A stretch of 64,000 bases of DNA, taken from NCBI GenBank assembly GCA_947624745.1, contig CANQLR010000001.1, positions 62,001 to 126,000 of the forward strand, written 5' to 3'. Position 1 is the first letter of the stretch; the number at the start of each line of letters is the position of its first letter. Below the pieces are notes generated by a model that ran no database searches, was not told the origin of the DNA, and saw nothing but the letters and a program-made list of their open reading frames with translations. This DNA is from an uncultured Clostridia bacterium. GTDB taxonomy: Bacteria; Bacillota; Clostridia; Oscillospirales; Ruminococcaceae. Below are positions 21,634 to 26,494 of the stretch, one piece after another. The translations under genes and the position numbers were made by a program.

Positions 21634-23007
21634 TTGGACTCATTTTATGAGCTGTTTGAAACTGTAAAAAGGGTCTGCCAGGCAGATCCGAAGGTATCCG
21701 AGGTCGGCTACAACAAGTGGATAAGAAACCTCGAGGCCGTGAAATTTGAAAACGGCGTGGCGACGCTTGCCGCCGCGAACGATTTTATGCGCCGCACCAC
21801 CGCCGAAGCCTACGGCGAAACGTTAAAGCGCGCCTTCGAGCAGGTACTCGGCTTCCCGGTCGAGATCGAATTCACCGTCAGCGGCAAGACCGACGAAAAG
21901 GCCGCCGCCCAGGCAGACGGTTTTTCCGAAATCGAAAAGAGAATGGCGGACCTTCTGTCGAGCCATCAGAGGAGCGACTATGAGCTGACCTTTGAAAACT
22001 TCATCAAGGGCAAGTCGAACGAACTGGCCTACGCCTACTGCATAGCGGTCTCGGGCAGAAACGCCGCCGCCGCGGGCTCGGGAAGAACGGTATTTAACCC
22101 GCTGTTTATCTACGGCGACTCCGGCCTCGGAAAAACCCACCTTTTAAAAGCAATTGAGCACGAGGTGAGAAAGAATCACCCCGAGTACAACGTCATATAC
22201 ACCACCGGCGAGAGCTTCACGAACGAGCTGGTCAAATCCGTCTCCGACAAGGACACCTATTCCTTCCACGAAAAGTACCGCAAGGCGGACTATCTTTTGC
22301 TTGATGACATTCAGTTCATCGCCGGCAAGGAGATGACCCAGGAGGAGTTCTTCCACACCTTCAACGAGCTATACAACGCGGGTAAACAGATAGTAATAAC
22401 TTCGGACATTTCGCCTAACCGTATAAAAAAATTAGAGGAGCGGATCAAATCCCGCTTTGCCTTAGGCGTTCAGGCCGACGTTCAGCCGCCGGATTTCGAG
22501 ACGAGAATGGCTATCGTTCAGCGCAAGGCGGAGCTTTTGGACCTCAACCTCCCCGACCCGGTCGCGAGGATAATTTCCGAGAAAATAAAGAACAACATCC
22601 GCCAGCTTGAGGGCGCGGTCAACAAGATCAAGGGGCTCACAATGTTCTCGAACGAGAGCCCGTCCATCTCGATGGCCCAGCGGGTCATCAAGGAGACCCT
22701 CATCGACGCCCAGCCGGCCGAGATCACCGTCGAGAGGATAATCGGCGACGTCGCGGCGGCATTCGGCGTTTCGGCGGACGACATCAGAAGCGCGACCCGC
22801 AGCTCGCAGGTCTCGATGGCAAGAAAGGCCGCGGTATACATTATAAGAGAGGTAAAAGGCATGAGCTTTACCGCCATCGGCGACGAGTTCAAGCGCAACC
22901 ACTCGACCATGACTATATCCTACAGCGACGTCAAGGAAATGATGAAGCGAAACAGCGACCTGAAGGATACTATTGACGATATTATCAACAACCTGAAGGT
23001 GGTGTGA
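21634..23007 (+). CDS. dnaA: Chromosomal replication initiator DnaA (TTG start; divergent domain IV)
   Basis: AAA+ core NPLFIYGDSGLGKTHLLKAIEHEV, LLLDDIQFIAGKEMTQEEFFHTFN; C-terminus GDEFKRNHSTMTISYSDVKEMM. Confidence 0.97.
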   Translation: MDSFYELFETVKRVCQADPKVSEVGYNKWIRNLEAVKFENGVATLAAANDFMRRTTAEAYGETLKRAFEQVLGFPVEIEFTVSGKTDEKAAAQADGFSEIEKRMADLLSSHQRSDYELTFENFIKGKSNELAYAYCIAVSGRNAAAAGSGRTVFNPLFIYGDSGLGKTHLLKAIEHEVRKNHPEYNVIYTTGESFTNELVKSVSDKDTYSFHEKYRKADYLLLDDIQFIAGKEMTQEEFFHTFNELYNAGKQIVITSDISPNRIKKLEERIKSRFALGVQADVQPPDFETRMAIVQRKAELLDLNLPDPVARIISEKIKNNIRQLEGAVNKIKGLTMFSNESPSISMAQRVIKETLIDAQPAEITVERIIGDVAAAFGVSADDIRSATRSSQVSMARKAAVYIIREVKGMSFTAIGDEFKRNHSTMTISYSDVKEMMKRNSDLKDTIDDIINNLKVV

Positions 23008-23240
23008 CTGCCGAGGGCGGGGGTTTGGGCGTTCTATCATTAGGGAGAGCTGAAAACGGGTTTGAGCAGTTTTGGCTGGATATGAGTGGTAGCAGCAAGG
23101 CGCATCTTTGGGAGTTCTGCCGGGAGTGAGGCAAAGAAACGGGCAGCGTTTTGGGCTCGGCTCGGTCAGAAGCACCCCCTCCGATATCATCTCTGATCCC
23201 GTCGCGAAGCGACACATCGAAACTCTATCTTCTATCCTCT

Positions 23241-23590
23241 AATTCAACATTGTTCTCAACAATGTTGAAACTCTATCTTCTATGAGCGTTCGGCGTTCCG
23301 CATGGGTTTTGATTCTGATTTCAACGATGGGTTTTCAACAAGGGTCGTTTTTTCAAAGAGTTCTCAACTTTAAAACACCGCGCTTTTCGACATTTTAACC
23401 GGAAAAATTTTTTTCGACAGGTTCCCGTTTTTCGGTTGAAAGCCGGTTGAGCCGAAAACCGCTTCGGAACGCGGGTCTGAAACGCCTTTCAACTTTTCGG
23501 CAGCCTCTAATACTAATACTAAAAATATATATTATATATTTCATTCATTCACGCGAAAAAACGTCTTTCGTGCGAATATCTTTCAACGTC
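23241..23590 (+). other. Candidate oriC core: cluster of variant DnaA-box-like 9-mers (consensus TTTTCAACA) next to an AT-rich unwinding region
   Basis: About 12 TCAAC/TCGAC-core 9-mers on both strands; AT-rich CTAATACTAATACTAAAAATATATATTATATATTTC at about 23507-23541. Confidence 0.6.
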
Positions 23591-23608
23591 AGGCAAGGAG
23601 GAAGAAAT

Positions 23609-24712
23609 ATGAAAATAATTTGCTCGAAGCAGAGCCTTTATGAAGCGCTTACAAACGTTTCCAAGGCGTCCGCCGATAAGTCCACCATTCCCGCTTTGGA
23701 GGGCGTAAAAATAAAGCTCTTTAACGGGACCCTCTCGGTCATCGGCTACGATCTTGAGCTCGGGATAATCACCAACGTTCCCGTCGAGTCGGCTGATAAG
23801 GGCGAGGCGGTCATCATGGACGTCAAGGGCTTTTCCTCCATGATAAGAAGCATGCCGACCGACGAAATAGAGATCGAGTTCGACGATTCTTTAGGGATAC
23901 ACATCAGCGGCGGCACCGCGAGCTTTAACATCAACGCGCTCTCGGCCGACGAATACCCCCAGGTCCCCGACACCCACGAGGGCGAGGAAATTGTCCTTCC
24001 GCAGAGCGTTTTAAAGAGCCTCATCACCGAGACGGTATTCGCCGTCGCGACAAACGACACAAAGCCTATTTTCAAGGGGGAGCTTTTTGAGCTCGAGGAT
24101 AATCGGCTGAATATAGTAGCTCTCGATTCGTTCCGCCTTGCGGTCAGAACGGAAGCGGTAAAATACCCCGGGAAATTAAGCTTTGTCGTGCCGTCAAAGA
24201 CCCTTAACGAGGTCTCGCGGCTTTTAAAGGACGAGGACGGCAAGGAGTGCGCGGTCAGAGTCACCAAAAAACAGGTGGTATTTGACTTTTCCGGCTACAC
24301 CGTCTTTTCAAGGCTTTTGGAGGGCGAGTTCCACAACTACCGCGGCTCTATCCCGAAAACGAGCGTCACCGAGGTCATTATCAGTAAGAAGGATCTGACC
24401 GACTGCCTCGAGCGCGCGTCGCTCATGATAAACGAGAGGGTCAAAAGCCCGGTAAAATGTATGTTTGACGGGGGCTCGGTGAAGCTCACCTGCCAGACCT
24501 CGCTTGGAAAATTCGAGGACGAGACCCCGGCGGACCTGACCGGCCCGAAGATCGAAATAGGCTTCAACTGCCGCTATCTTTTAGACCCGTTGAAGGTCAT
24601 CAAGGACGATAAGATAAAGCTCATGATGAACGGCGGCAACCTGCCGATGAAGATAGTCCCCGTTTCGGGCGAGGAGTACACCTACCTCGTCCTGCCGGTG
24701 AGGATGAAGTGA
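23609..24712 (+). CDS. dnaN: DNA polymerase III beta clamp
   Basis: MKIICSKQSLYEALTNVSKASADKSTIPALEGVKI...; C-terminal YTYLVLPVRMK; start moved to 23609. Confidence 0.97.
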   Translation: MKIICSKQSLYEALTNVSKASADKSTIPALEGVKIKLFNGTLSVIGYDLELGIITNVPVESADKGEAVIMDVKGFSSMIRSMPTDEIEIEFDDSLGIHISGGTASFNINALSADEYPQVPDTHEGEEIVLPQSVLKSLITETVFAVATNDTKPIFKGELFELEDNRLNIVALDSFRLAVRTEAVKYPGKLSFVVPSKTLNEVSRLLKDEDGKECAVRVTKKQVVFDFSGYTVFSRLLEGEFHNYRGSIPKTSVTEVIISKKDLTDCLERASLMINERVKSPVKCMFDGGSVKLTCQTSLGKFEDETPADLTGPKIEIGFNCRYLLDPLKVIKDDKIKLMMNGGNLPMKIVPVSGEEYTYLVLPVRMK

Positions 24713-26465: not shown

Positions 26466-26494
26466 TTATCAACAAATCAACAGAGTTTTCAACA
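26466..26494 (+). other. Secondary cluster of TTNTCAACA 9-mers
   Basis: TTATCAACA (26466), AAATCAACA (26474), TTTTCAACA (26486), about 8-12 nt apart. Confidence 0.45.

Follow-up and report, generated by a model that had tools for sequence, protein, structure and literature searches.

Gut bacteria around Ruminococcus seem, from sequence comparison, to use TTTTCAACA as the DnaA box of the chromosomal origin and almost never TTTTCCACA, with the recognition helix of DnaA changed to match. DnaA and its box are usually regarded as a near-universal pair. In the 64,000-nucleotide stretch of DNA analysed here (the window), we place at about 0.78 the probability that the dnaA–dnaN gap is the chromosomal origin and that the sites with a TTTCAAC core are the boxes for this organism's DnaA. 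The box change is not peculiar to the window genome and is common to Ruminococcus and its relatives. The comparison covered a single genome from each genus of the family, together with named public relatives (uncultured rabbit-gut Clostridia, Ruminococcus albus, R. bicirculans, and Candidatus Faeciplasma).

Candidate origin between dnaA and dnaN

The genes in the neighbourhood of dnaA, named by sequence resemblance, follow the order dnaA, dnaN, an S4-domain gene, recF, remB, gyrB, and gyrA, with the opposite strand carrying the genes immediately left of dnaA (Table 1). The encoded DnaA has the AAA+ domain III and the Bac_DnaA_C domain IV of the initiator family, matches Bacillus subtilis DnaA (8btg) over nearly its full length (E 4e-82, phmmer), and is the sole match in the genome to the DnaA C-terminal family PF08299, over the cut-off and in single copy. 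Based on the gene order, the box density, and the basal unwinding system (BUS) described below, the dnaA–dnaN gap is read as an oriC candidate; comparison among relatives supports this reading, which had been proposed in the initial annotation, and the gap is very probably oriC.

Table 1. Positions of the genes, putative DnaA boxes, and unwinding elements in the window.
Feature	Positions	Strand	Remarks
dnaA	21634–23007	+	ORF, 457 aa, TTG start
DnaA residues 421–428 RNHSTMTI, start of recognition helix 5	22894–22917	+	From alignments
oriC candidate, dnaA–dnaN intergenic region	23008–23608		601 bp; gene order, box density, BUS
Weak box AATTCAACA	23241–23249	+	Within 12-bp perfect inverted repeat
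Box TTCTCAACA	23253–23261	+	In 23243–23269 inverted repeat
Box GTTTCAACA	23263–23271	-	In 23243–23269 inverted repeat
Box ATTTCAACG	23318–23326	+	Position 9 relaxed in window clade
Box TTTTCAACA	23332–23340	+	Clade consensus
Box TTCTCAACT	23361–23369	+	
Box TTTTCGACA, G6 variant	23384–23392	+	G6: 8 vs 1.0 expected in window clade
Box TTTTCGACA, G6 variant	23411–23419	+	
Box CTTTCAACC	23434–23442	-	Relatives repeat an inverted box at about the same distance from the BUS box
Weak box GGCTCAACC	23445–23453	-	Second inverted box
BUS box CTTTCAACT	23486–23494	+	First trio 12 bp downstream
Spacer TTTCGGCAGCCT	23495–23506		12 bp
DnaA-trios CTA-ATA-CTA-ATA-CTA, CTAATACTAATACTA	23507–23521	+	Other strand 3'-GAT-TAT-GAT-TAT-GAT-5'
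AT-rich stretch AAAAATATATATTATATATTTC	23519–23541		From sequence; probable unwinding element
Box CTTTCAACG	23580–23588	+	Adjoins dnaN
dnaN (sliding clamp)	23609–24712	+	ORF, ATG at 23609
recF–remB gap cluster	26466–26494	+	TTATCAACA 26466, AAATCAACA 26474, TTTTCAACA 26486

The 12 9-mers that the initial annotation had listed as candidate boxes were all recovered at the same positions and on the same strands, and the canonical boxes, of which it had seen none in the gaps flanking dnaA, are indeed absent, TTWTNCACA occurring 0 times across all 64 kb. In the whole genome this canonical form shows no enrichment (147 sites versus 138 for a reversed control). The 2.57-Mb genome contains 365 copies of TTTCAAC, which gives an expectation of 0.085 for the 601-bp gap, where six are found (Poisson p ~5e-10); the stricter TTWTCAACA occurs 67 times genome-wide, with three in the dnaA–dnaN and recF–remB gaps together versus 0.033 expected (p ~6e-6). 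When the pattern [ACGT]T[TAC]TC[AG]ACA is counted, no other 600-bp bin on the 160-kb contig is as dense as the gap (5 versus 0.15). The loose core NNNTC[AG]ACN is found 12 times in the gap (mean, 3.9), with 13–14 in other bins of the contig, and the density of a loose TC[AG]AC core was rejected as evidence because equally dense bins lie elsewhere. Thus, the claim that the motif is dense against the genome background stood for TTTCAAC and the strict forms and failed for the loose one; since the loose core is unexceptional, density alone gives no support to the weakest sites (GGCTCAACC and AATTCAACA).

The sites at the dnaA-proximal end of the array fall in a perfect inverted repeat with 12-bp arms (TTCAACATTGTT CTC AACAATGTTGAA), on either side of which lies a direct repeat, AAACTCTATCTTCTAT (23218–23285). 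No boxes were seen in the ~470 bp upstream of dnaA. The smaller cluster that had been noted in the recF–remB gap is real, though small; a congener (L298) has a 30-bp recF–remB gap with TCAACA and CTTTCAACA on the minus strand, and other relatives mostly have no boxes in this gap. Elsewhere in the same genome, five TTTTCAAC boxes in inverted arrangement occupy an intergenic region outside the window (C1:139980–140105; L247/L248), a candidate DnaA-titration or regulatory cluster, and about six TTTTCAAC boxes are densely clustered in a further intergenic region (C12:15540–15660; L306; CGTTGAAAAaagCGTTGAAAATGTTGAAAA...), possibly a regulatory DnaA-box cluster.

Basal unwinding system and DnaA-trios

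The BUS is defined by a DnaA box at most 16 bp from at least three 3'-NAN-5' trios (PMC8287927). This arrangement is found at 23486–23521, at the dnaN end of the gap, with a 12-bp spacer and five trios followed by AT-rich DNA. The first part of the spacer together with the preceding T (23494–23502) reads TTTTCGGCA; several relatives have at this place a tandem second box with A at position 6 (A6), giving TTTTCAACATTTCAACAGCCC and then the trios, comparable to boxes 6 and 7 of B. subtilis. The module is conserved in 19 of the 21 genomes of the clade to which the window belongs (window clade), with TTTCAAC invariant in all 19 aligned, and most of these 19 also carry inverted boxes ~40–50 bp upstream of the BUS box. 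In the window clade the trios often switch between GAT and TAT (CTAATACTAATA), those of the relatives with ordinary DnaA being mostly CTACTACTA; it is possible that the alternation reflects a co-change in the single-strand code.

In a further comparison, the BUS box was identified only from its location ahead of the trios, and any base was allowed at position 6. Position 6 was A in 19/19 window-clade genomes, which bore out the proposed shift from TCCAC to TCAAC, and in 13/13 Ruminococcus genomes with a detected BUS. Only C was found in 23 of 39 relatives with ordinary helix 5 and in 19 of 28 other Clostridia, and T appeared in two genomes of the rewritten-helix group, one of them a doubtful hit. 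The contrast in A6 gives a Fisher p of ~2e-10, phylogenetically uncorrected and with the two T-containing hits excluded.

Box code across the family

The family-wide DnaA box is TTTTC[C/A]ACA. Among 78 genomes with the ordinary helix 5 (RDHSTIVYA), position 6 is A in 153 boxes, C in 127, G in 2, and T in 4, with shuffle expectations of 9.3, 5.6, 3.8, and 3.3, respectively; across the class C6 is dominant (136 C, 69 A). The 71 genomes with a rewritten helix 5 (Ruminococcus and relatives) have 245 A, 6 C, 8 G, and 2 T, and the 6 C against 245 A place C6 at about background. The 62 boxes scored in the window clade (21 genomes) comprise 54 A, 0 C, and 8 G at position 6, so that none of them (0/62) is a canonical E. 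coli-type TTWTNCACA (C6). The clade is also permissive at position 9 (54 A, 36 C, 25 T, and 18 G), and position 5 of the scored boxes is mainly C (54, with 11 T and 6 A), not the T5 of Epsilonproteobacteria. As for the TCGAC form, which had been put beside TCAAC as part of the same shift, its enrichment is confined mainly to the closest relatives of the window (8 versus ~1 expected). The local norm that has been replaced is thus the clostridial TTTTC[C/A]ACA and not the E. coli TTATCCACA; A6 is tolerated family-wide, and what is novel is that C has been lost and helix 5 of DnaA rewritten.

A nested subclade with the helix NRNHATITLNYQ (L130, L132, L137, L138, L140, and L309–L311; HATITL), which carries S435A, has TTTTAAACA at 36 sites versus 2.3 expected, with only 3 sites of TTTTCAACA, an apparent second change of the box judging from these counts. 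The TTTTAAACA pattern recurs in L309–L311, which were taken from the whole-genome set and are perhaps identical with the organisms already counted. The sister group of this subclade (KRDHSTMTINYK) has kept A6 and admits A, C, or T at position 5.

Recognition helix of DnaA

In E. coli, the 5'-TnCACA-3' part of the box is covered in the major groove by the DnaA helix of residues 434–451, and the TTA part in the minor groove by Arg399 (review, PMC5742627); bases are contacted by residues 399, 423, 432–435, and 438–439, those of helix 5 being 432–435 and 438–439 (PMC5043019). Aligned with R432–H439 of E. coli (RDHTTVLH), the window DnaA shows D433N, T435S, V437M, L438T, and H439I, and one Gly is missing just before the helix. 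The clade helix has changed from RDHSTIVYA to R[D/N]HSTMTIS, including the E. coli contact positions 438 and 439, and the rewritten pattern at large is R or K, D or N, and HSTMT..., with one Gly missing. The arginine aligned to E. coli R399 is kept in the clade, which, with 438 and 439 changed, fits a change limited to the 3' half of the box. A structure model of the window DnaA has an intact helix-turn-helix (helices 412–419 and 423–439; domain IV pLDDT ~85–91); among solved structures, the B. subtilis BUS complex 8btg matches it best.

Several factors that might account for the loss of C6 were compared. At GC >0.45, the ordinary helix goes with 26 A : 50 C and the rewritten helix with 22 A : 0 C, and the helix term of a logistic regression that also includes GC has an LR chi2 of 112 (genomes treated as independent); both results reject AT content as the whole cause of A6. 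Likewise rejected were D433N, since D433 genomes with T438 have 38 A : 0 C, and the missing Gly, since its loss together with a hydrophobic 438 leaves C6 in place (L029 and L073, and at class level L188, L198, L205, L208, and L237, without the 438 change). T438 also occurs in another genus, which has not lost the Gly and has 35 A : 1 C; this genus is AT-rich, and its nearest relatives are also without C6. A6-only origins occur in some ordinary-helix genomes as well, mostly AT-rich ones. Five genomes with the ordinary helix and A435 (L028, L037, and L276–L278) lean to A6 in small counts, a lead for residue 435. On a DnaA tree from which domain IV was left out, T/N438 requires four changes, with about three origins; a phylogenetic pair test with these three independent pairs is powerless (median p 1), and so few pairs allow no phylogenetically corrected p-value. 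From the residues that accompany the loss in the alignments, we infer that the 438/439 substitution causes it.

Proposed mechanism and alternatives

Domain IV of DnaA would read TTTTCAAC(N) via helix 5, in which a polar residue at 438 and an aliphatic one at 439, replacing V/Y, would abolish the acceptance of C at position 6. As in B. subtilis, DnaA at the BUS box and the inverted boxes would nucleate an ATP-DnaA filament on the trios, and the filament would then melt the AT-rich stretch. Within the one family, we lean towards a stepwise rewriting of the box code, each step with a matching change in helix 5: from TTTTC[C/A]ACA (V438, Y439) to TTTTCAACA with C6 lost (T/N438, I/L/T439), and from there to TTTTAAACA in the nested subclade with S435A, with TTTTC[A/G]AC[N] in the window clade.

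It is also conceivable, though rather unlikely, that no recoding took place, all these DnaAs accepting C or A at position 6 and A having risen by mutation bias or chance. Such drift would agree with the frequency of A6 beside ordinary DnaA and its rise with AT content, as well as with the rare C-to-A change tolerated at position 6 in Epsilonproteobacteria (PMC5043019), but the GC-matched bins still differ, the window clade has no C among its boxes and eight G, and the shift to A6 coincides with new residues at 438/439, also in a second lineage. Much less credible is the view that the motifs are the sites of another regulator or parts of the repeats and hairpins of the gap: the sites at 23241–23271 do belong to a perfect inverted repeat, and pieces of the adjacent direct repeat are present at three other places in the genome, but the 27-bp inverted repeat itself has no match elsewhere in the genome, and in 19 of 21 clade genomes the motif stands where the BUS has its DnaA box, with 12 bp between it and the trios.

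The least probable alternative, by a small step, is a true origin elsewhere in the genome with canonical boxes. The GC skew near dnaA on the window contig has the sign expected for an origin; more than ~10 kb to either side it is weak and of the sign opposite to expectation, which, like the other TTTTCAAC clusters, would speak for an origin elsewhere. Against it stand the lack of enrichment of canonical boxes genome-wide, the conserved BUS in the dnaA–dnaN gap, and the skew in a near-complete relative (G114; 20 sampled 20-kb stretches, individually noisy), where the sign switches to positive within 3.06–3.24 Mb (dnaA lies at 3.10 Mb) and to negative within 1.26–1.44 Mb, about half a chromosome off, consistent with an origin at dnaA.

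Comparison with known origins

The mollicute box consensus is TT(A/T)TC(C/A)ACA, with TTTTCAACA and TTATCAACA named there (PMC3322544). The 9-mer is identical, including the choice of C or A at position 6, and the family around the window, taken as a whole, matches it, whereas the window clade has A6, no C6, some G6, a relaxed position 9, and a rewritten DnaA helix 5; the comparison with mollicutes concerns box sequences only. In Epsilonproteobacteria the box core is TTCAC, and helix 5 differs at 435 and 438–439 (PMC5043019). The present case resembles these origins in that the box has shifted along with the same helix positions, but there position 5 has become T, and here position 6 has become A (with A at position 5 in one subclade). 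The B. subtilis origin, with boxes 6/7 and DnaA-trios (PMC8287927, PMC10721633), shares the box, 12-bp spacer, trios, and AT-rich DNA in the dnaA–dnaN gap, and the tandem boxes of several relatives; it differs in that the boxes here are A6, the trios often alternate instead of repeating GAT, and the ~470 bp upstream of dnaA show no boxes. Thermotoga maritima also combines species-specific boxes, AAACCTACCACC (PMC10225481), with a divergent DnaA helix (RSHPVV), but its box is a 12-mer of unrelated sequence.

The consensus TT(A/T)TC(C/A)ACA in mollicutes (PMC3322544) and the co-variation of helix 5 and box in Epsilonproteobacteria (PMC5043019) were thus already known. Our literature search found no paper combining DnaA box, Ruminococcus, and oriC, and the loss of C6 with the helix-5 change in the Ruminococcus group, the TTTTAAACA subclade, and the alternating trios appear to be new within the searchable literature.

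Altogether, a normally conserved lock and key, DnaA and its box, seem to have changed in step. At position 6, where the E. coli consensus (TTWTNCACA) is fixed as C, a clade with R. albus and R. bicirculans among its members appears to have fixed another base, and the accompanying helix-5 substitutions point to specific residues. The default box of Ori-Finder is TTATCCACA; the oriC and DnaA-regulated sites of these gut bacteria should be searched for with TTTTCAACA. Such a clade would offer natural intermediates in which to study how the specificity of an essential initiator can shift while its origin is kept.
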